Under the pieces are notes generated by a model. The model saw nothing but the letters and a program-made list of their open reading frames with translations. It was not told the DNA's origin and did not search any database. Below, in pieces: positions 969 to 11,125 of a DNA stretch of 12,030 nucleotides; the first letter of the stretch is position 1, and each line of letters begins with the position of its first letter. The position numbers and the translations under genes are program-made. The stretch is from an uncultured archaeon (GTDB taxonomy: Archaea > Thermoproteota > Nitrososphaeria > Conexivisphaerales > CALBHZ01): NCBI GenBank assembly GCA_937892815.1, contig CALBHZ010000010.1, forward strand, positions 1-12,030, written 5' to 3'.

Positions 969-1331
969 TTAGATTATCCTTATGCTACCTTCATCTACCC
1001 ACTTTACGATCTTCAACTTCTCAAAATCTCTATCCTTAGTCATTAACCTTAATTTCTTAGATATGGCGGTTGAGGCTATTATTAGATCTACATCGGGAAT
1101 TATAGTTCCCTTTTTCCTCAATTCATCGTACAGCTTACAATAAACCTCTACTACCTCATTATCTATTCCTACTACGTTAAAGCTCTCCTCCAAGAGCTCT
1201 TTAACTACCTTCCTCTTCTCCTTCTTCGTTCCTCTCAAGACCTCAATTAAGGTGATAACTGAGATAGAGCCTTCCTCAAACTTCTTCTCCTTCAACATAT
1301 CTAATAAATAACTCGTATCGAATAACATCAT
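969..1331 (-). CDS. vapC: PIN-domain ribonuclease toxin, VapC family
   Basis: This 120-aa protein has the length and acidic residues of a VapC toxin, a Mg2+-dependent endoribonuclease that typically cuts tRNA or rRNA when released from its antitoxin. Visible PIN residues are Asp5 in MMLFDTSYLLD, Glu30 in ISVITLIEVLRG, Asp80/Asp82 in IPDVDLIIAS and Asp100/Asp102 in LMTKDRDF. The set is complete, so the enzyme looks intact. The start ATG overlaps the stop of the upstream antitoxin gene as ATGA (1328-1331), which implies translational coupling; a second ATG follows directly. The pair should be autoregulated through the repeats at 1556-1588. The RNA target cannot be read from the sequence. Confidence 0.9.
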   Translation of the reverse strand: MMLFDTSYLLDMLKEKKFEEGSISVITLIEVLRGTKKEKRKVVKELLEESFNVVGIDNEVVEVYCKLYDELRKKGTIIPDVDLIIASTAISKKLRLMTKDRDFEKLKIVKWVDEGSIRII

Positions 1332-2376: not shown

Positions 2377-3240
2377 CTAACCTTTAATTGAAATGAATCC
2401 AAGTAGAGCGTAGAGAATGCTTGGTAAAGCTATTAAACACAGAAGCGTTTGATTTAGACCGTAAATTGGGATAAGCAAACCAGCAATTACCGGCCCAACG
2501 GCAATGCCTATAAATCCAAAGCACAAAACTAAGCCTGTAACCGATGAAACGAAGTCTTCTCTCACTAACTCTTGAGCGCTCGTAAGGAAAAGGTTCCAGT
2601 AGGGAGAGATGAAGAAGCCTAGTGTAGCAGAGAGAAGGATAATAGTTAGTACATTGGAAGACGTAAGGGAGAAGATAGCTATACTTATAGCTGTAGCTAC
2701 TATCCCCGTAATGGAGATCGTCATCCTTCTCCCTATTTTATCTGAGAGAGCTCCAAGAGCTAGAAGCCAAAAAAGCCAATGAAGAGAAATAAACCGAAAG
2801 CGAATCCGTTTCTATTGGATTTAAACCAAAGATGTTATAAAATACGTAGGAAGCCATGTAGCAGCTGTAGAAAATGCGATACTACCAATTAAGATGGAGA
2901 TGCTTGCAATTATTACAACCCTTTCCTTTAAAAGTTGAAGGAAGATCGAGTACGACATCCTCTCCTTACTTTGAGTAGACGTTTTAACTACTTTAAATTG
3001 AATAAACGTTAACAAAAGTATAATAACGCCCATAACGACGAACGCTAACCTCCAATTATATTGTGCTGCGAAGAAGCCCATAGTTGAAGAACCAAGCAGC
3101 CCTCCAAGATTGAAAACCCCCGTTGCTAGACCTACAGCAAACCCTTTGCCTCTTTTAACGTTTCTCCTACAGTTGAATAATATGGAGGTATTAACAGTCT
3201 TGCCCCAGCACCAGCTAGTAATAGAGAAGTAAGAAGCTCA
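2377..3240 (-). pseudogene. Frameshifted, 5'-truncated major facilitator superfamily transporter
   Basis: Pieces of one MFS protein occur in order on the minus strand, spread over different frames. They are: a TM3-like LLTSLLLAGAGARLLIPPYY (about 3175-3235); then after a frameshift RGKGFAVGLATGVFNLGGLL (about 3095-3155), continuous with GFFAAQYNWRLAFVV and ATWLPTYFIT (to 2821); FGLNPIETDSLS in a second frame; FGLFLFIGFFGF in a third; and finally LALGALSDKIGRRMT, which carries the hallmark MFS loop motif, running to the TAG at 2377. At least three frameshifts and two stops separate them. About 288 codons remain of a usual 400 or so; the first two or three membrane segments are missing, and the sequence turns GC-rich and unrelated beyond 3240. 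Substrate cannot be told. Several indels in succession argue for decay rather than one sequencing error. Confidence 0.8.
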
Positions 3241-3538: not shown

Positions 3539-5548
3539 TCAAGAAGGTTTGCTCACAACGATTGATTCGGGTGGCTTTTCCTTTTTGACAGCCAATAGTC
3601 CGGCAATCTCTGAAAGGATCTGTTTATCTGTAAAGTACAGTTGTTTTATAGCACCTGAAGGGCATGCAGAGGCACACGTACCACAACCCTTGCAAAGCGC
3701 ATCGTTTATTTGCACAATTTCCTTATCTTTATTGAAGCTTATAGCTCCGTATGGACATAAACTGATACATATTCTGCAACCAGAACACCTCTCAGGATCG
3801 ACGATAGAGACATACGGCTCTGTTTCGACATAGCCTTTACTTATTAGATCTATGGCTTCTGCAGCGGCCGCTTCAGCCTGAGCAACCGTATCAGGAATAT
3901 CCTTGGGTCCTTGACAACACCCTGCTATAAAGATGCCTGATGTTGCTGTAGCTACGGGTGCGAGCTTTGGATGCTTCTCAATGAAAAATCCATCGTTCCC
4001 GATACTAAGATTAAACATCCTCGCGATCTCTGGAGCGTCCTTCCTTGGTACCAAACCAACGCTGAGAATAACCATATCCACAGGCACCCTTCTAACCACA
4101 CCTAAAAGAGTGTCTTCAGCTACTACGATAAGTTTGCCCTCTTCTTCAGGCGTTAGAGGTATATCGGTCACTTCGGCGACCTTACCCCTGATAATTTCAA
4201 CACCCTCTTCCATTACCCGTTTATAGAACTCTTCGTAACCTTTGCCGAAGGCTCTCATGTCTATATAAAATTCATAGACTTTGGCATCCGGGATCCTTTC
4301 CTTGATCATATGGGCGAACTTCAGAGAATACATACAACAAACCCTAGAACAATATTTGTTATAATTCTCATCTCTACTTCCAACACAGTGAATAATGGCT
4401 ATGCTAGAAGGGGTTCTACCATCCTTTAAGACAATTTTGCCATTAGTTGGCCCAGAAGCATTCAAAATTCTTTCGAATTCAAGACTTGTAAATACGTTGT
4501 CAAACCTACCGTACCCATATCGAGGAATTTTGGATGCGTCAAAGATATCATATCCGGTTGCGATTACAATAGCTCCGACTTCTACTTCAATAATTTCAGG
4601 CTTCTGGTTAAAATCGATCGCTTTTCTATCACAGAACTTTTCACAAACTCTACAAACGCCTTTCTGGAAGTATAGACAATGTTCGGCATCGATCGTATAT
4701 TTTCGTGGTACAGCTTGCGGAAAGGGTATATAGATGGCTTTTCTACTGCTCAACCCCATATCAAACTCATTTGGCACCCTTACCGGACATTTTTCAGCGC
4801 ACGTTCCACATCCCGTGCATTTTGATTCATCTACATATCTGGGCTTTTTCCTAATCTTGACCTTAAAGTTTCCGACGTAACCTGACACTTCTTCTATCTC
4901 GCTGTATGCTAGAATTTGAATGTTAGGATGCTTGGCTACTTCGACCATCTTGGGCGTAAGAATACATGAAGCGCAATCTAGTGTAGGGAAGGTCTTGTCC
5001 AATTGTGCCATTCTTCCGCCTATACTTGGAGTTTTTTCAACCAAATAGACCTTTATGCCAGCCTCTGCTACGTTTAATGCCGTAGTAATGCCTGCGATCC
5101 CGCCTCCAACAACAAGGACGGCAGGAACAATGGGCAACTTTTTAGTCTGAATAGGTTCGTTGTAGATCACCCTATTTACAGCCGCTGCTATAAGATCCAT
5201 AGCCTTCTCGGTAGCTAGCTCTTTGTCCTCAGTGACCCAAGATACGTGCTCCCGAATATTTACCATATGGCAAAGATATGGGTTTAAACCCCCATCGGCG
5301 CATGCTCTTCTGAATGTCGGCTCATGCATCGTAGGGGAGCAAGCAGCTACGACCACCCTTGTCAATCCATGTTCTTTAATATCCTTCTTAATGAGTTCCT
5401 GACCTGGCTCTGAACACATGTAAATATAATGCCGTGCTATCTTCACGCCTGGTAGTCCCGACGCAAACTTTGTGACTTCTTCTACGTCAACGGTTTCTGC
5501 TATGTTCTTTCCGCAGTGGCATACATAAACACCGATCTTTTCTTTCAT
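3539..5548 (-). CDS. hdrA: Heterodisulfide reductase subunit A (flavin, Fe-S; HdrA)
   Basis: HdrA carries the FAD and is the proposed electron-bifurcating subunit of soluble HdrABC. It is full length (669 aa from the ATG at 5548). I prefer that ATG to the GTG at 5557 because AGGGTGGT sits just upstream as a ribosome site. Residues from this start: N-terminal domain with Cys10, Cys12, Cys45 and Cys70 (CHCGKN, CSPTMHEPTFRR); FAD dinucleotide motif VVGGGIAG at 146-153; inserted ferredoxin cysteines 244/247/250/254 and 291/299/302/306; the HdrA-specific cluster set Cys388, Cys400, Cys404, Cys405 (HCVGSRDE and YCSRVCC); GCCQGPKDIPDTVAQAEAAA near the end; and two C-terminal 4Fe-4S motifs (588-598 and 619-629). 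All ligands are present and there is no selenocysteine. It is the last gene of the operon, 18 bp after hdrB. No MvhD or other partner is fused or adjacent. Confidence 0.96.
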   Translation of the reverse strand: MKEKIGVYVCHCGKNIAETVDVEEVTKFASGLPGVKIARHYIYMCSEPGQELIKKDIKEHGLTRVVVAACSPTMHEPTFRRACADGGLNPYLCHMVNIREHVSWVTEDKELATEKAMDLIAAAVNRVIYNEPIQTKKLPIVPAVLVVGGGIAGITTALNVAEAGIKVYLVEKTPSIGGRMAQLDKTFPTLDCASCILTPKMVEVAKHPNIQILAYSEIEEVSGYVGNFKVKIRKKPRYVDESKCTGCGTCAEKCPVRVPNEFDMGLSSRKAIYIPFPQAVPRKYTIDAEHCLYFQKGVCRVCEKFCDRKAIDFNQKPEIIEVEVGAIVIATGYDIFDASKIPRYGYGRFDNVFTSLEFERILNASGPTNGKIVLKDGRTPSSIAIIHCVGSRDENYNKYCSRVCCMYSLKFAHMIKERIPDAKVYEFYIDMRAFGKGYEEFYKRVMEEGVEIIRGKVAEVTDIPLTPEEEGKLIVVAEDTLLGVVRRVPVDMVILSVGLVPRKDAPEIARMFNLSIGNDGFFIEKHPKLAPVATATSGIFIAGCCQGPKDIPDTVAQAEAAAAEAIDLISKGYVETEPYVSIVDPERCSGCRICISLCPYGAISFNKDKEIVQINDALCKGCGTCASACPSGAIKQLYFTDKQILSEIAGLLAVKKEKPPESIVVSKPS

Positions 5549-5566
5549 AATTACCACCCTGTATCT

Positions 5567-6424
5567 CTAAGTAATCTTTTTCTTCAACGGAACGAGCATA
5601 GCTTTTAGGCCTATTTCGTCTGGTGACAAACCGAATGCTAATCCTATAAGTTGGGTAAACGGCACGATAGGGATCGACAGCTGTATGTTGTATTTTTTGT
5701 TAACGTCCTCTTGGAACATTTCCAGATTTGTCTGACAAAGAGGACAGCAAGTTGCAATGCATTCTGCCCCACTCTTTACCGCACTTTGTAACAGGTCTTT
5801 GATAAGCCCGAGGCATGCTTCTTTGTTAAGGAAACTTAGCATACCACCACAACATTTCGTCTTTAACGGGTAACTTACGGCTGTAGCACCGATCCAGCTA
5901 ATTAACCGATCCATCGATGTCGGAAATTCAGGATCATCAAAAATGTGGAAAGGCCTGACTATCTGACAGCCATAATAAGGTGCGACTTTGAAGTCCTTAA
6001 GTGGACTGATAACCTTTTCTTTAATTGATTGTTCGCCTACGTCATTAACTAATACCTCTAGGATGTGACGAACTTTCACACTCCCATGGTACGACAGACC
6101 TATCTTTTCTAGAATTTCATTTACCGTTTTGTTCAGATTCGCGTTCTTTTTTAAATACATATTCGTTTTGAGGAGATTAGTATAGCAAGCATTGCAAATC
6201 GTAAGCAAATTATTTCCCATCCTTTCTGCAAGAGCTAAGTTTCTTGCAGAAAGGACGAGGGCCTGTAGTTCATCAACCGAGTGATAGAAAGTTGCACCGC
6301 AACAATTCCAATCTTCTAATTCCACTAGGTCGGCACCTAAGTGCTTCATTATAGCTCTAGTTGAAATATCATATGGTTTTTGCAATCCTTTAGCTGAGCA
6401 ACCTGGATAATAAATATATCGCAA
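5567..6424 (-). CDS. hdrB: Heterodisulfide reductase subunit B (CCG-domain, HdrB)
   Basis: HdrB is the catalytic subunit and reduces the disulfide at two noncubane [4Fe-4S] clusters. This 285-aa protein has both CCG repeats intact. The first uses Cys9 (YYPGCS), Cys41-Cys42 (NCCGAT) and Cys77/Cys80 (CNACYTNL). The second uses Cys153 (YYGCQIVRP), Cys191-Cys192 (KCCGGM) and Cys226 or 227 with Cys230 (CCPLCQTNL). The spacing agrees with methanogen HdrB. It starts with TTG directly after the hdrC stop codon (TAATTG), with GGGGGT about 8 nt upstream as a ribosome site, so it is translationally coupled to hdrC. The natural substrate may be CoM-S-S-CoB in methanogens or alkane oxidisers, or another disulfide or sulfur carrier in other archaea. 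The window does not decide this. Confidence 0.96.
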   Translation of the reverse strand: MRYIYYPGCSAKGLQKPYDISTRAIMKHLGADLVELEDWNCCGATFYHSVDELQALVLSARNLALAERMGNNLLTICNACYTNLLKTNMYLKKNANLNKTVNEILEKIGLSYHGSVKVRHILEVLVNDVGEQSIKEKVISPLKDFKVAPYYGCQIVRPFHIFDDPEFPTSMDRLISWIGATAVSYPLKTKCCGGMLSFLNKEACLGLIKDLLQSAVKSGAECIATCCPLCQTNLEMFQEDVNKKYNIQLSIPIVPFTQLIGLAFGLSPDEIGLKAMLVPLKKKIT

Positions 6425-7024
6425 TTAACCCGACCCCCGTAATTTAATTCTTTCACTAATCTGCGTGAGGTCCTTGATGTTTTTTATAGACTCGCTTTTT
6501 ATGATACTAGTAAGAGAAATTCTCCCTTTTCGTAATAGTTTTAAACCTAACGGGACCGTATCAAACATCCTAGAGAGGTTTTTAAGGATGAGTGACATAG
6601 TTAGGCGCATTTCATTTACCCTCCCGTATTTTTCTACCTGCTCTATGAACTTCTCCGATAACACCTCGTAGCCATTAGTAGGTTGGTTTATTCCAGATTT
6701 CTTAGCTAATCGTTTAATCTCATAAAGTAGATCTGTTATTCTAATACCTGCTGGACATCTTGTTGTACATAGGTAACAAGAAACGCACATCCAGGGGGTA
6801 TTGGATCGAAGGACTTCTTCGAGCATCCCATTTCTGCAGAGAGCTACCAACTTTCTTGGCCCATAATCCATTAAGTAACTAACCGGACACGAGGCGGTAC
6901 ATGTTCCACATTGTAGGCATGCCTCAATTTTATTTCCATCCAAAATTGTCCGTAAATCATCTTTAAAGGCCTGTTCTAACATAAGCCCTTCCTGTTTTTT
7001 AGTTCGCACACTAGACCACCTCAT
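6425..7024 (-). CDS. hdrC: Heterodisulfide reductase subunit C (2x[4Fe-4S], HdrC)
   Basis: HdrC relays electrons from HdrA to HdrB through two ferredoxin-type clusters. Both motifs are complete: C36-x2-C39-x2-C42-x3-C46-P (CLQCGTCTASCP) and C80-x2-C83-x2-C86-x3-C90-P (CVSCYLCTTRCP). The helical C-terminal half is typical of HdrC, giving 199 aa. The ATG at 7024 overlaps the upstream stop as ATGA. An internal ATG at 6982 (residue 15) has a good ribosome site, GGAAGGGCTTATG, and would remove a basic 14-residue leader (MRWSSVRTKKQEGL), giving MLEQAFKDDL. Either start is possible, and the internal one may be the real one. Homology to the subunit is secure; the start is not. Confidence 0.93.
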   Translation of the reverse strand: MRWSSVRTKKQEGLMLEQAFKDDLRTILDGNKIEACLQCGTCTASCPVSYLMDYGPRKLVALCRNGMLEEVLRSNTPWMCVSCYLCTTRCPAGIRITDLLYEIKRLAKKSGINQPTNGYEVLSEKFIEQVEKYGRVNEMRLTMSLILKNLSRMFDTVPLGLKLLRKGRISLTSIIKSESIKNIKDLTQISERIKLRGSG

Positions 7025-7410
7025 TCATCCTTTTTCCTTGAAGGAATTCCAAGTGCTAGTCGAACGTCTTTCTTCTGGAACTCCTTCCTTTCCTCTAATA
7101 ACTTAGCTGTCATATCTATGGCGAAGGATTCCCCAACCTCGTTTGCTGCTTTCATAATCAATAAATCTTCGATGTCACGGAGCTCTTGCGTAATGTAAGT
7201 TTCTAATTTAGGATAACATTTTTTATCGGAATTTTTCTTATGGCTGTTATATAGGTTTATATAGCCTCTGGCGACCCCAAGCATATCAATTAAATCGGAT
7301 ACGTTGACTCCCCTTTTCATCAATTCTATAACCATCCTTGATAAAGTAGTCCATCTGCGTTCAAACCAAGATCTCACCTTCTCACCCCATGAGTTATCTA
7401 CTAAATACAT
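7021..7410 (-). CDS. Unrecognised 129-aa protein, first gene of the hdr operon
   Basis: I do not recognise this soluble, charged 129-aa protein. A helical stretch at about residues 36-56 (NVSDLIDMLGVARGYINLYN) has the look of a small helix-turn-helix, followed by a lysine-rich linker (SHKKNSDKKCYPK) with the only cysteine (Cys65). A second helical half contains EVGESFAIDMTAKLLEERKE. It has no Fe-S motif, signal peptide or membrane segment. Its stop codon overlaps the hdrC start by 4 bp, so it is co-translated with the Hdr subunits and probably acts with them or on their expression. The ATG at 7410 lies about 20 bp downstream of a TATA-like TTATAA (7428-7433), so its mRNA is probably leaderless or nearly so. 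It could be an assembly, scaffold or regulatory protein; the sequence does not choose between these. Confidence 0.8.
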   Translation of the reverse strand: MYLVDNSWGEKVRSWFERRWTTLSRMVIELMKRGVNVSDLIDMLGVARGYINLYNSHKKNSDKKCYPKLETYITQELRDIEDLLIMKAANEVGESFAIDMTAKLLEERKEFQKKDVRLALGIPSRKKDE

Positions 7411-7510
7411 CTATATACTTTATCTACTTATAATTATATCACGAATAATGGTATATATCAATGTTCCTTTTTCATTTTTTACATAAATATATACAGCATG
7501 TAGATAAAGT
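7394..7510. promoter_or_regulatory. Divergent hdr/regulator promoter with a shared inverted-repeat operator
   Basis: ACTTTATCTAC (7417-7427) and GTAGATAAAGT (7500-7510) form a perfect 11-bp inverted repeat with 72 bp between the arms. A further copy of the core TTATCTAC is at 7394-7401, just inside the first codons of the 129-aa gene, 26 bp from the next copy. The arm at 7417-7427 sits at the hdr-side TATA/start region (TTATAA at 7428-7433). The arm at 7500-7510 sits just after the regulator-side TATA (AAATATATAC, 7485-7494). One factor could therefore control both directions. The regulator encoded next door is the obvious candidate. The repeats are direct observation; the binding is inferred. 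Confidence 0.6.
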
Positions 7511-7542
7511 TAATAAATGTAGTCCCCAATATATATCCTAGG

Positions 7543-8604
7543 ATGAAAGTAAGAAGGATTCAAAAAGTCGGCCGCAACACGTTAGTGGTCTCTTTACCAT
7601 ACGATTGGGCTGAGAAAGTCGATTTAAAAAAAGGAGATCTCGTTATCTTTGAAGAACTAAGGGATGGTTCTCTAAATTTACGACCATATAAAAATAAAAC
7701 TGAACAAATTTGTGAAGAATGCGTCATAAATTCTGACCTATGTAATGAGCCGGGGCTTCTGGAAAGAATCATAGTTAGTAACTACATTATGGGACGCGAT
7801 ACAATTAAAATAATCTCTTCAAGACGTATACGACGAGAACACCTCAGTGAGATCCGAGGTATTGTACAAAAACTTTTAGGGCTAAGTATAATGGAGGAAA
7901 GTGATAAACGCGTACTTTTGCGGTGTTCCCTCAACATAACCGCATTTCCAGTTCACTTACTATTAGGAAGGTTATACGTCATCGCTTCAACAATGCATAA
8001 AGAATGTATGCAAGCATTGATCGAATTTAATGCCGATTTAGCCGAAGCCGTAATTATGAGAGAGGAAGAGGCAGACAAAATATATTGGTTAACTCTTCGT
8101 GCATTATTATCGGCTCAGATGTATAGAGAAGTAGCGCTTAAGGTGGGACTAGAGGATGTAAGGCGTATATTGGGCAATAGGGTTATCGCTCATCATTTAG
8201 AAAGAATCGCAGACTGGTGTGAAATCATAGCGAGAAACGCTCTTGGTATTATTAAAAATGATTTCAGACTAAAACCAGAGCTCCTTCAGAAGATTCAAAG
8301 GTTCAATGAATTATGTTTCGAAACCCACTATAAGGCGATGCAGGCACTATATAAGTGTGATGTGAAAGGAGCTAGTAATGTTGTGAAATTATATAAGAAC
8401 GAAATTGAAGGTAAGGAGGAAACCCTAACAAAAGAAGCAATAGAAAATGCCCCTACTGCTGCATGTCCCTTTTTAAGGGCCATTCTCTTTGGTATAAGGA
8501 GAATAGCGGAGCTGGGCGCAGAAATTGCAGAAATCGCTATGAACAGGGCTCTTGAGGAGTCTAGTGAAATTTGTAAAGTTAATCATGTTTGCTTTACGGA
8601 CTAA
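7543..8604 (+). CDS. AbrB-PhoU fusion transcriptional regulator with extra cysteines
   Basis: This 353-aa protein combines an N-terminal AbrB/SpoVT swapped-hairpin DNA-binding domain (residues 1-48: VRRIQKVGRNTLVVSLPYDW, then LKKGDLVIF) with a PhoU-like helical region (about 130-335). PhoU signatures are MREEEADKIYW (172-182) and AHHLERIADWCEIIARNA (216-233), acidic helices that bind metal clusters in PhoU proteins. The length and architecture match archaeal 'phosphate uptake regulator' proteins. Unusually, the linker has C57-x2-C60-x6-C67 (ICEECVINSDLC), and the C-terminus has Cys344 and Cys350 (EICKVNHVCFTD). With cysteines 128, 155, 226, 258, 272 and 308, this makes 11 in all, which hints at metal or redox sensing. 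No phosphate transporter genes are near. It is transcribed divergently from the hdr operon and shares its operator, so hdr is its likely target. About a third of its arginines use CGN codons, unlike the glycosylase gene upstream. Confidence 0.87.
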   Translation: MKVRRIQKVGRNTLVVSLPYDWAEKVDLKKGDLVIFEELRDGSLNLRPYKNKTEQICEECVINSDLCNEPGLLERIIVSNYIMGRDTIKIISSRRIRREHLSEIRGIVQKLLGLSIMEESDKRVLLRCSLNITAFPVHLLLGRLYVIASTMHKECMQALIEFNADLAEAVIMREEEADKIYWLTLRALLSAQMYREVALKVGLEDVRRILGNRVIAHHLERIADWCEIIARNALGIIKNDFRLKPELLQKIQRFNELCFETHYKAMQALYKCDVKGASNVVKLYKNEIEGKEETLTKEAIENAPTAACPFLRAILFGIRRIAELGAEIAEIAMNRALEESSEICKVNHVCFTD

Positions 8605-8712
8605 TTAGTTCCTTTTAACAGGTAGGTGTGGATTCTCCAGCAAGGGTTCTCCTACGCTGATGGTTAACTTTAAATAACATTTTCTACCATTTCTTCATAG
8701 GTCATAGAAAGG

Positions 8713-9325
8713 TTGTTGACGTTCAGGAAGCTTGCAGAAGACTTGATATCCATCCGAACGCTTTGGGAAAGTAAGATAGGCAGGGTAAGATTAGGGTTGT
8801 CCGGACTGTTGGTGGTCGAAGGAGGATACCTGAAAAGCGGAATTGAACGCTTAATGGGGATTATCAAGCCAGATATTTCAAGAAAAGCAGCAATTTATGT
8901 TAGAGTCCCTTCTCATGACTAGAAGGGAGATTTGGATAAGCAGGAACAAAGTCTATTGGAGTACGCGAAATCGAAAGGTTACGAAATCGTTTCTATCTTG
9001 GAGGATGTTATGAGCAGGCTTAACGAGAACAAGAAGTCTTTGAATAAGCTCTTCGATATTGTTGAGAGAAGGAAGATTGGAGTTTATCGTAGCTTTCAAA
9101 GACGGGTTGACTAGGTTTGGATTCAGATACCTTGAGCGTTATTTTGCCTCTTATGGTGTCAGGATTGAGGTGGTTAACGGTGAAGAGCCTAAAGATGCAT
9201 ATCGGGAGCTCGTAGAGGATTTGAGTGCTCTAGTCTCAAGCGTCGCTGGCAAGCTTTACGGATTGGGAAGCCGCAAGTACGAAAAGGTGGTTAAGGGTGT
9301 CGAACGCTTATCAAAGCCCTCCTAG
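8713..9325 (+). pseudogene. Decayed IS607-family serine recombinase (tnpA)
   Basis: Read across frames this is an IS607 OrfA: a MerR-like N-terminal HTH (LTFRKLAEDL, then DIHPNAL in another frame), the DNA-recognition block GKIRVVRTVGGRRRIPE (third frame, about 8783-8833), and a serine-recombinase domain (IERLMGIIKPDISRKAAIY onward). Lesions are: a frameshift near 8745; another near 8775-8785; one near 8833-8842; a TAG at 8920-8922 where CAG is expected (SHDQ became SHD-stop); and a frameshift near 9080, after which the original frame resumes with EFIVAFKDGLTRFGFRYLER through to the TAG at 9325. In RVSS the nucleophilic serine is CCT (Pro, 8908-8910), so the enzyme would be dead even without the frameshifts. 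The expected full length is about 200 aa. In its active form this enzyme inserts IS607 elements through a 5'-phosphoserine intermediate. Confidence 0.85.
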
Positions 9326-9559: not shown

Positions 9560-9955
9560 TTACAACACTACAGTAGGAGCTTCCTTTACCTCCTCTATAC
9601 TTCTGTCCGTAGTTACTATAGTCGCTTTCCTCTTTTTAGCGAGCGCTATTAAGTAACAATCCGCTAAGGATAGTACCTTGTAATATCTATGTTTTAATTT
9701 AGCGGCTTCTAAGGTCAGTTCCTCGTTTATCTCAACGAAAGCTATCGGGCTATTGCGCAGTAACGAATGTTTAACTATAGCGGCTTCCCATCCAAAGACC
9801 CTAGCATAGTTGTACAGAAACTCGGCAACGTTGACTTCACACATATAGGCTTCTGCTTTCCCATCGTATAATTCGTTAATGTAGCTCTTTACATCTCCAC
9901 GACCTGCGAAGTAAAGCGGCGAAACGCCGGCATCAAGGACGTACCTCTTTATCAA
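9560..9955 (-). CDS. vapC: PIN-domain ribonuclease toxin, VapC family
   Basis: This 131-aa protein begins with TTG (MIKRYVLDAGVSPLYF). The PIN acidic residues are all present: Asp8 (VLDAG), Glu45 (NVAEFLYNY), Asp99 (SLADCYLIAL) and Asp117 (VTTDRS). The nuclease looks functional. The start lies inside the 3' end of the preceding AbrB-type antitoxin reading frame (overlap about 23 bp, 9933-9955), the usual coupling in these modules. That antitoxin frame is broken by a 1-bp shift, so the toxin may lack its partner, or its translation may be poor because coupling is lost. Confidence 0.88.
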   Translation of the reverse strand: MIKRYVLDAGVSPLYFAGRGDVKSYINELYDGKAEAYMCEVNVAEFLYNYARVFGWEAAIVKHSLLRNSPIAFVEINEELTLEAAKLKHRYYKVLSLADCYLIALAKKRKATIVTTDRSIEEVKEAPTVVL

Positions 9956-10450: not shown

Positions 10451-10849
10451 TTAGCGCACGTCGATCCATATAACCTTTACCGGTGTTCTCTGAAAGTCGG
10501 CATCTTCGGTAATTATCGCTTGGATGCCGTTATTTTCCATTACGGCTAAATGGATGGCGTCAGATGGCTTCAAGTTGTACTTTAAGACGTTACTTCTCAT
10601 CTTCAAGTACTCCTGAAGTCCTATCGGTAAAATTTCTACTGCTGGTAAGATCACATCGTCGATGAACGCTACGGTCTCTTCGTATGGAACTCTGTACTTC
10701 CTCTTCGATACGTAGAGAAGCTCGTCTATAGCTAAGACGTCCGTATATGCTTCCTCACTTAAGGCTCTTTTGAATAGCTTATCTAGCCTTTCGTCTTTAA
10801 CGCCGATATTGAGGTAGATTAGAAAGCTAGCATCAAGAAATACCTTCAT
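10451..10849 (-). CDS. vapC: PIN-domain ribonuclease toxin, VapC family
   Basis: This intact 132-aa PIN protein starts MKVFLDASFLIYLNIG. Catalytic acids visible are Asp6 (FLDAS), Glu43 (IDELLYV), Asp97 (KPSDAIHLAVM) and Asp116/Asp118 (ITEDADF). The ATG at 10849 lies 17 bp inside the end of the antitoxin gene, so the pair is coupled. It resembles the toxin at 9560-9955 only in the PIN core. The cellular RNA target is unknown. Confidence 0.9.
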   Translation of the reverse strand: MKVFLDASFLIYLNIGVKDERLDKLFKRALSEEAYTDVLAIDELLYVSKRKYRVPYEETVAFIDDVILPAVEILPIGLQEYLKMRSNVLKYNLKPSDAIHLAVMENNGIQAIITEDADFQRTPVKVIWIDVR

Positions 10850-11102
10850 CGAATTCAGCCTCTAGATCGATTTTAGCAAGCTCTCCTAACTTTCCAACGA
10901 TACCCGCTTTTCTCCTCCTTTCCCTGTATTTCGATAGTGCCTTCAAGATCTCCTCAGGGGTCTTTCTCCGCTTTATAATTAAGCCATCCTCTAATGGAAC
11001 AATTACGACTTCCCCACCTTCCTCTATTCCATAGGCTTCTCTAAAGATCTTCGGTATAACTATTTGTCCCTTTGGCCCAACTTTTACTCTTATGCTTACC
11101 AT
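10833..11102 (-). CDS. vapB: AbrB/SpoVT-domain antitoxin, VapB family
   Basis: This antitoxin has an N-terminal swapped-hairpin AbrB domain (MVSIRVKVGPKGQIVIPKIF, then EEGGEVVIVPLEDGLIIKRR) and a charged helical C-terminus (TPEEILKALSKYRERRRKAG) that would bind the toxin. It is 89 aa from the ATG at 11102; a GTG at 11111 (adding MIL) is also in frame. I prefer the ATG because AbrB antitoxins usually begin one or two residues before the first strand. However, a TATA-like TTTAAATAG (minus strand, 11133-11141) points to a transcript start near 11111, so the GTG is not excluded. It overlaps vapC by 17 bp. Confidence 0.88.
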   Translation of the reverse strand: MVSIRVKVGPKGQIVIPKIFREAYGIEEGGEVVIVPLEDGLIIKRRKTPEEILKALSKYRERRRKAGIVGKLGELAKIDLEAEFDEGIS

Positions 11103-11125
11103 AAGTATCACTAAGTTATACTTAT
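11101..11125. promoter_or_regulatory. Inverted-repeat operator overlapping the vapB start
   Basis: ATAAGTAT (11101-11108) and ATACTTAT (11118-11125) form a perfect 8-bp inverted repeat with a 9-bp spacer. It covers the start-codon region of the AbrB-type antitoxin and the DNA just below its TATA element. Autorepression is expected for this family; binding itself is inferred. Confidence 0.5.

Follow-up and report, generated by a model that had tools for sequence, protein, structure and literature searches.

On the 12,030-nucleotide contig CALBHZ010000010.1 of an uncultured archaeon (assembly GCA_937892815.1; the whole stretch is called the window here), a tightly packed minus-strand operon of DUF2096_N, hdrC, hdrB and hdrA, the last three encoding heterodisulfide reductase (Hdr)-like proteins, lies divergent from a plus-strand gene for an AbrB-PhoU fusion protein. 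The window is one 12-kb contig (C10) of a 1.35-Mb genome that comes in 304 contigs and is 86.7% complete. An earlier first-pass annotation of this DNA had proposed that the fusion regulates this electron-transfer operon together with itself, and linkage across genomes, gathering of the linked members in one clade and enrichment of a motif in the shared gap support that proposal. From these comparisons we favor, with a probability of about two in three, a reading in which AbrB-PhoU binds clustered GTAnnTA(C) sites and controls both its own gene and the divergent DUF2096_N-hdrCBA operon.

The identities of AbrB-PhoU and of hdrC, hdrB and hdrA were confirmed by Pfam and NCBIfam domains; the earlier name for the operon, HdrCBA, fits these three genes but passes over DUF2096_N, which comes first. 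The regulator comprises an AbrB-type DNA-binding domain (residues 1-50), an alpha/beta middle domain (59-128) and PhoU-type helical bundles (137-340). Its N-terminus matched PF04014 at 37.0 bits (cut-off 24.7), identifying an AbrB/MazE swapped hairpin, and scored 20.9 bits with TIGR01439, under the cut-off of 28.3. The C-terminus matched PF01895 at 57.6 bits (cut-off 23.5), identifying a PhoU domain, and the protein reached 35.9 bits with the full-length PhoU equivalog TIGR02135, short of its cut-off of 130.25. The AlphaFold2 model (pLDDT 87.6) resembled PhoU 4q25 best among PDB structures, with a TM-score of 0.79-0.80 on the target. Foldseek also aligned SpoVT 2w1t to the predicted structure, over 47 columns at an E of about 1. 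A PDB search by sequence gave weak matches only, the best at E 0.079; myoglobin made up 59 of the 60 shown, and the remaining one was a PhoU (E 0.3).

E/DxxxD motifs are the metal motifs of PhoU metalloproteins. Two of them are kept in this family, with E174 present in 71, D178 in 72, E220 in 79 and D224 in 81 rows of an 83-row alignment (where L025 and L059 stand for a single gene), so metal binding by AbrB-PhoU is possible. A redox switch specific to the hdr-linked members was considered and rejected, as C67 (69/83) and C128 (60/83) are widespread in the family at large; among the hdr-linked rows, C344 shows lower conservation (8/14).

By Pfam, the operon encodes the domains of an HdrABC set: FAD and Fe-S domains in HdrA, two CCG domains in HdrB and an Fe-S domain in HdrC. 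All three proteins missed the NCBIfam cut-offs for the methanogen equivalogs (Table 1), and MCR alpha (PF02249) was not found in 13 genomes, namely the 86.7% complete window genome and 12 relatives, incomplete ones included. Given these scores and the lack of MCR, CoM-S-S-CoB is an unlikely substrate, and "heterodisulfide" should not be taken literally for these predicted Hdr proteins. Operons of the sHdr-LbpA sulfur-oxidation system hold an LbpA/GcvH-type carrier and a second HdrB; the window, a contig of only 12 kb, has one HdrB-like open reading frame (ORF) and no GcvH domain among its 13 Pfam-scanned ORFs.

Linkage of AbrB-PhoU and hdr genes across archaea

Among 61 genomes searched, 17, the window's included, had an AbrB-PhoU match at E<=1e-40. 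A DUF2096_N-hdr operon lies divergent from AbrB-PhoU in six other genomes. Five of these belong to one genus (f18 g67; L256-L260) and have DUF2096_N-hdrC-hdrB-hdrA, with HdrA proteins 64-69% identical to that of the window. The sixth, G005, is from the same order as the window genome (contig L059/WALT01000005.1); its AbrB-PhoU is 41% identical and stands divergent from DUF2096_N, MvhD, two HdrA-like genes and an HdrC-like gene. The Bathyarchaeal divergent operon has the order RHH-GcvH, NfnB-like, MvhD, HdrA, MvhD, HdrC, HdrB, and several members have HdrBCA and a NiFe hydrogenase on the other side of AbrB-PhoU. The first of these Bathyarchaeal genes, as at L117:8596-9903(-) and L063:8949-9539(-), joins an RHH-like N-terminus, seen by eye, to a GcvH lipoyl-carrier domain, assigned by Pfam for two L117 proteins and by similarity for L063. 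Next to the f18 hdr clusters lie HypF (L256:9083-11392(-) and neighbors; Pfam for L256) and, by eye, probable further hydrogenase maturation genes.

The first-pass annotation had suggested asking whether such regulators co-occur with hdr genes, and they do. A contig scan with a homologue alignment that was not chosen for hdr (A1) gave 79 loci, 12 of which have HdrA, HdrB or HdrC within 10 kb. In a tree of the 83 rows, all 13 hdr-linked rows (the window and the 12 loci) group within a 25-row clade with SH-aLRT 86, where they make up 12 of the 24 non-window rows, and none of the 58 rows outside it is linked. This was a quick tree from which the f18 rows were left out, and because its branches are long the place of the window within it is unsure. 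Linkage for the alignment and the tree was called at BLAST E<1e-12, and many contigs end within 10 kb; by this rule a Methanomethylicia locus (L045), where AbrB-PhoU is divergent from an HdrD-like gene and, judged by eye, one of membrane type, counted as unlinked.

A second profile (A2) was built from 15 subfamily members, mostly hdr-linked, and matched 35 of 300 genomes of a phylum sample at E<=1e-75. Of its 19 best matches (E<=1e-120, window included), 11 have an hdrA no more than 10 kb away, where 0.7 would be expected given the hdrA loci that these genomes carry; the count is biased upward, since the profile itself contains eight of the 11, including the window. Counted by family, linkage was seen in 5 of 8 (P about 1e-4), and among the 10 genomes outside the profile three were linked (G112, G317 and G302; 0.35 expected, P 0.003).

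The DUF2096_N profile PF23100 matched in 47 genomes of the phylum sample, above its cut-off in 46, and short versions head the hdr operons of the five f18 g67 genomes. In G077, a single 312-aa frame (L261:5525-6463(-)) combines DUF2096_N with an HdrC-type ferredoxin domain beside a separate DUF2096_N gene, a fusion that suggests DUF2096_N to be a member of the Hdr complex. Divergent from this DUF2096_N-HdrC-HdrB group is an 865-aa frame (L261:6999-9596(+)) with an HTH-like N-terminus (DUF7347, weak HTH_20) and HdrA-like and FlpD/MvhD domains, perhaps a regulator-enzyme fusion. Long DUF2096 proteins of about 160-190 aa adjoin smc-like genes, so labelled by eye from the protein start, at many of 30 loci fetched (L226-L249). 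A literature full-text search gave no paper naming DUF2096.

Repeats and GTAnnTA sites in the shared gap

The DUF2096_N gene overlaps hdrC by 4 nt, and its frame is open up to ATG 7410. Its likely start is GTG 7377, since a relative's protein (P0061, 89% identical) begins at the corresponding residue, and with this start the gap runs from 7378 to 7542 and all three copies of TTATCTAC reported by the first-pass annotation are non-coding. We found these copies at 7394-7401(+), 7420-7427(+) and 7500-7507(-), and the perfect 11-bp inverted repeat that had been described alongside them is likewise there, as ACTTTATCTAC/GTAGATAAAGT at 7417-7427/7500-7510, extending to 22 nt with 86% complementarity (7406-7427/7500-7521). 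Dinucleotide shuffling of the whole window gave at least three copies of TTATCTAC in 6 of 200 trials. In the genome, the pairing TTATCTAC N60-90 GTAGATAA is unique to this gap, and GTAGATAAAGT has five copies, two in the gap, two in coding frames and one upstream of an unrelated gene. GTAGATAA, on either strand, occurs in 3 of 102 promoter regions sampled on the window and on 63 other contigs of the genome (C269 included on purpose), namely both promoters here and that of the AbrB-PhoU paralogue on C269, and thus is not a general promoter element.

Whether the arms recur at homologous loci, a further point raised by the first-pass annotation, has a divided answer. The exact TTATCTAC is not conserved: at the G005 locus GTAGATAA with one mismatch was found 13 times against 11.8 expected, with no enrichment, so that what is conserved must be something other than TTATCTAC itself. 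Its core is what recurs. Each TTATCTAC contains the heptamer GTAnnTA, and the three copies supply three of the seven GTAnnTA, counted on both strands, in the 165-bp gap; none of 300 shuffles reached seven (mean 1.43). Taken as 7411-7542 with 5 sites, the gap was also the densest in GTAnnTA of 66 sampled gaps of its own genome, followed by that of the C269 AbrB-PhoU paralogue.

When all 3+3 palindromes with spacers of 0-9 were scanned upstream of 72 AbrB-PhoU genes (72 of the 79 loci, the others lacking an AbrB-PhoU frame that passed the filter or having too short an upstream region), GTAnnTAC ranked first, present in 24 of 72 upstream regions (shuffle mean 3.3, maximum 8). Seventeen gaps of hdr or RHH-GcvH loci, the window excluded, held 19 GTAnnTAC palindromes (shuffle mean 1.3, maximum 6); GTAnnTAC was counted 38 times on both strands, and the other 35 composition-matched patterns at most 3 times each. 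In this 17-gap count, some Bathyarchaeal region ends were set by hand, 11 Bathyarchaeal gaps and G005 come from the motif-discovery set, L063 and L073 are close relatives and so are the five f18 genomes. The five f18 gaps, which were not used for motif discovery, held 8 GTAnnTAC against summed shuffle means of 0.6. Within loci, the AbrB-PhoU gaps carried 18 GTAnnTAC in 2,751 bp (16 gaps, 6.5 per kb) and the 115 remaining gaps at these loci 6 in 15,019 bp (0.4 per kb), while five other palindromes showed no comparable excess in the AbrB-PhoU gap; this comparison covers 16 of 20 loci, as mechanical ORF calling left no free gap upstream of AbrB-PhoU at L055, L060, L308 and L318. The prevailing form of the putative operator is AGTATATAC in f18 and AGTAAATAC in Bathyarchaeota.

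Sites were also seen at second hdr operons. In the f18 genomes G150, G170 and G116, an operon with HdrC, two HdrA-like, MvhD-like and, by resemblance, hydrogenase-like genes is preceded by GTAnnTAC at 17, 27 and 62 nt, respectively, and this gap is the sole one with GTAnnTAC among the 12, 8 and 6 gaps of the stretches. In G116 the second operon lies on the same contig as AbrB-PhoU, about 8 kb away. The corresponding stretch of G190 has another operon type and no GTAnnTAC site. Together these sites support a putative wider regulon in the relatives and not in the window genome. Across four f18 genomes AGTATATACT occurs at 21 sites, where the reversed control gives 10; of 15 sites with loci, 12 lie in reading frames, 2 in AbrB-PhoU/hdr gaps and 1 upstream of a second DUF2096-like gene. 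The last (L262:6802, G150:C16) is some 80 nt upstream of that gene, whose PF23100 match is below cut-off and which does not adjoin hdr.

Table 1. Genes and sequence features of the AbrB-PhoU/hdr locus in the window.
Feature	Position	Strand	Evidence
hdrA-like, 672 aa, FAD + 4Fe-4S	3539..5557	-	NF040770 917 bits, cut-off 1100
hdrB-like, two CCG stretches	5567..6424	-	PF02754; TIGR03288 228 bits, cut-off 345
hdrC-like, 4Fe-4S dicluster domain	6425..7024	-	Fer4_8; TIGR03290 82.9 bits, cut-off 160
DUF2096_N protein, 118 aa, first hdr-operon gene	7021..7377	-	PF23100 28.7 bits, cut-off 26
Shared divergent regulatory region, 165 bp, DUF2096_N-hdrCBA / AbrB-PhoU, seven GTAnnTA	7378..7542	.	site count vs shuffles
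GTAGATAA copy 1 (TTATCTAC on +), inside AGTAGATAACT	7394..7401	-	GTAnnTA at 7395-7401(-)
GTAnnTA site (TGTATTTAGT)	7402..7408	-	motif scan
GTAnnTA site (AGTATATAGA), overlaps putative TATA box of DUF2096_N-hdr promoter (by eye)	7412..7418	-	motif scan
Left arm of 11-bp inverted repeat, GTAGATAAAGT; GTAnnTA at 7421-7427	7417..7427	-	repeat + motif scan
GTAnnTA site (GGTATATATC)	7451..7457	+	motif scan
GTAnnTA site (TGTATATATT)	7488..7494	-	motif scan
Right arm of 11-bp inverted repeat, GTAGATAAAGT, directly 5' of putative AbrB-PhoU TATA box	7500..7510	+	repeat + motif scan
Putative TATA box of AbrB-PhoU, TTAATAAA	7511-7518		by eye
AbrB-PhoU regulator, 353 aa	7543..8604	+	Pfam domains, AlphaFold2 model, PDB structure match

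A putative operator and rival explanations

In the mechanism that we propose, AbrB-PhoU would act as a one-component transcription regulator that binds GTAnnTA(C) core sites in the shared region, the inverted TTATCTAC arms being two of its seven sites. Bound there, it would keep TBP and TFB off both promoters, giving repression of the operon together with negative autoregulation. Because the sites flank or overlap the putative TFB-recognition element (BRE) and TATA box of both promoters, repression is the most likely mode, and AbrB-PhoU probably represses the hdr operon and its own gene; alternatively, it may activate through an upstream site. The signal would be carried by the PhoU part, with its helical bundles and two E/DxxxD motifs, or by the cysteines of the middle domain. 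The identity of the binding protein, the repressive mode and the signal are all inferred.

Several observations weigh against this interpretation, besides the inflated linkage count given above. Judged against shuffles of the 165-bp region, the repeats alone are only mildly unusual, with some 8-mer present three times in 92 of 500 shuffles. The window gap holds the heptamer GTAnnTA only and no perfect GTAnnTAC, the gaps of L259, G005, L055 and L067 likewise lack the perfect form, and some of the window sites overlap TATA-like sequence. Among the relatives, the f18 genomes all come from a single genus, and some of the Bathyarchaeota are close to duplicates. Each second-operon site is weak alone against shuffles (0.03-0.07 of 300), and in G195, where the operon start is off the contig, the only gap with sites among those fetched holds two and does not precede hdr. 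A genome-wide regulon defined by GTAGATAAA found no clear support, with 40 sites against 29 for the reversed control and 31 of the 40 coding and 9 non-coding; an inverted GTAGATAAA pair on C302 falls inside a gene. As to linkage, the misses comprise four f20 genomes, which have RHH-GcvH and no hdrA nearby (G105, with a lone HdrB-like gene, is one of them), and G077, G270, G152 and G321, where G270 is the same contig as L045, with the HdrD-like operon instead, and G152 and G321 are short contigs. The subfamily members L044, L046, L047, L058 and L108 have other neighbors.

Some of the data would also fit an AbrB-PhoU that regulates only itself through GTAnnTAC, with hdr as an inherited neighbor whose promoter lies in the same gap by chance. 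Fifteen of the 24 motif-bearing loci are not hdr-linked, 17 of 29 GTAnnTAC sites begin 20-35 nt before the start codon of AbrB-PhoU itself, and the corresponding second hdr operon of the window genome (C91) has no site. We nonetheless consider this explanation unlikely: L063 and L072 have an additional GTAnnTAC 81 nt upstream of the RHH-GcvH gene, on the hdr side; the sites in the f18 gaps spread across both promoters; the second hdr-hydrogenase operon has a site in all three f18 genomes with the upstream gap at hand; and the hdr-linked rows gather in a single clade.

The repeats could instead be core promoter elements, a BRE beside each TATA box, with the symmetry reflecting two similar promoters rather than an operator. 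The archaeal BRE consensus is RNWAAW, and this reading had to be weighed because GATAAA, present in both arms, fits it. The arms stand directly upstream of TTAATAAA and TATATAG, one other genome copy (L126/L207) is likewise placed before a TATA-like box, and an inverted repeat of at least 11 bp was reached in 17 of 500 local shuffles. However, GTAGATAA occurs in only 3 of the 102 promoter regions, one copy (7394-7401) lies downstream of the putative TATA box, and the palindrome of the relatives sits mostly at -20 to -35 before AbrB-PhoU and is rare elsewhere in these loci, all of which makes promoter elements a poor prospect. A shade less probable still is binding of the sites by some other protein, such as the RHH-GcvH fusion of Bathyarchaeota or an AbrB-PhoU paralogue. 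RHH-GcvH fusions do occur at many of these loci, and the window genome carries three further AbrB-PhoU genes, one with GTAGATAAA upstream, while a G005 paralogue carries AAGTAGATAAA just upstream. Yet tblastn showed no RHH-GcvH in the window, L256-L260 or L025 (best E 2.4), and the one gene that all these gaps share is AbrB-PhoU. We retain control of both promoters by AbrB-PhoU as the preferred reading.

Neighboring genes and known systems

Elsewhere in the window, two pieces of an MFS transporter lie downstream of hdrA in separate frames, both just under the Pfam cut-off (2377-3081(-)), and are probably a decayed gene. At 3' of AbrB-PhoU, 8700-9325(+) resembles a decayed transposon recombinase by eye, its single listed frame having no Pfam match. 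A MazE-type antitoxin/PIN pair and two more PIN proteins are found at 10451-11111(-), 9560-9955(-) and 969-1331(-).

A putative operator of the AbrB-PhoU subfamily is described here, which yields AGTAnnTACT as a candidate for testing, together with a predicted pairing of regulator and target that is seen again in several families of archaea. One could go further and see in this widespread, Thermoproteota-type subfamily a dedicated sensor-regulator of electron-transferring Hdr complexes (HdrABC, alone or joined by Mvh hydrogenase, as well as Qmo-like pairs and modules for NfnB and a lipoyl carrier). Its operator would be AGTAnnTACT, and its PhoU part would respond not to phosphate but to metal, to redox state or, via DUF2096_N, to the Hdr complex itself; this joint proposal is tentative, and we think it rather doubtful as a whole. 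DUF2096_N would be a candidate new Hdr-associated subunit, and the way in which uncultured archaea control Hdr-based electron flow would become open to simple in vitro tests. Full-text searches of the literature gave no paper combining PhoU, AbrB and heterodisulfide reductase, and no transcription regulator of archaeal hdr operons of the AbrB-PhoU type was among the matches listed.

The findings also give ground to doubt an automatic label. Some relatives of the window protein are named "phosphate uptake regulator" in their source annotation, and archaeal SpoVT/AbrB-PhoU proteins called "phosphate uptake regulator PhoU" share its domain order and sequence family. Unlike what that name implies, the window subfamily is often found at hdr or RHH-GcvH operons and off the contigs that carry PiT genes: PiT (PF01384) genes occur in 6 of 12 genomes, always on contigs other than that of the subfamily gene, and no link to phosphate transport emerged in the other 6, where no PF01384 gene was found (pst genes were not searched). 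One protein of this build, TK2245, described as "SpoVT/AbrB family, containing PhoU domain", is tabulated in the section on chromosome-associated proteins of one report (PMC7325993).

Among enzymes, the soluble HdrABC of methanogens has the same HdrA, HdrB and HdrC domain content; the window proteins differ in scoring under the equivalog cut-offs, in having DUF2096_N as first gene of the operon and in the lack of MCR alpha. Among regulators, the nearest described case that we encountered is that of sHdrR and SoxR, which the relevant passages of PMC12423496 present as ArsR-type repressors of bacterial sHdr-LbpA operons that bind fragments with inverted or direct repeats and whose action depends on conserved cysteines. 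These repressors resemble the predicted AbrB-PhoU system in that a regulator is paired with hdr-like genes, and differ from it in that they belong to another DNA-binding family, are bacterial and act on sulfur oxidation genes with lbpA.

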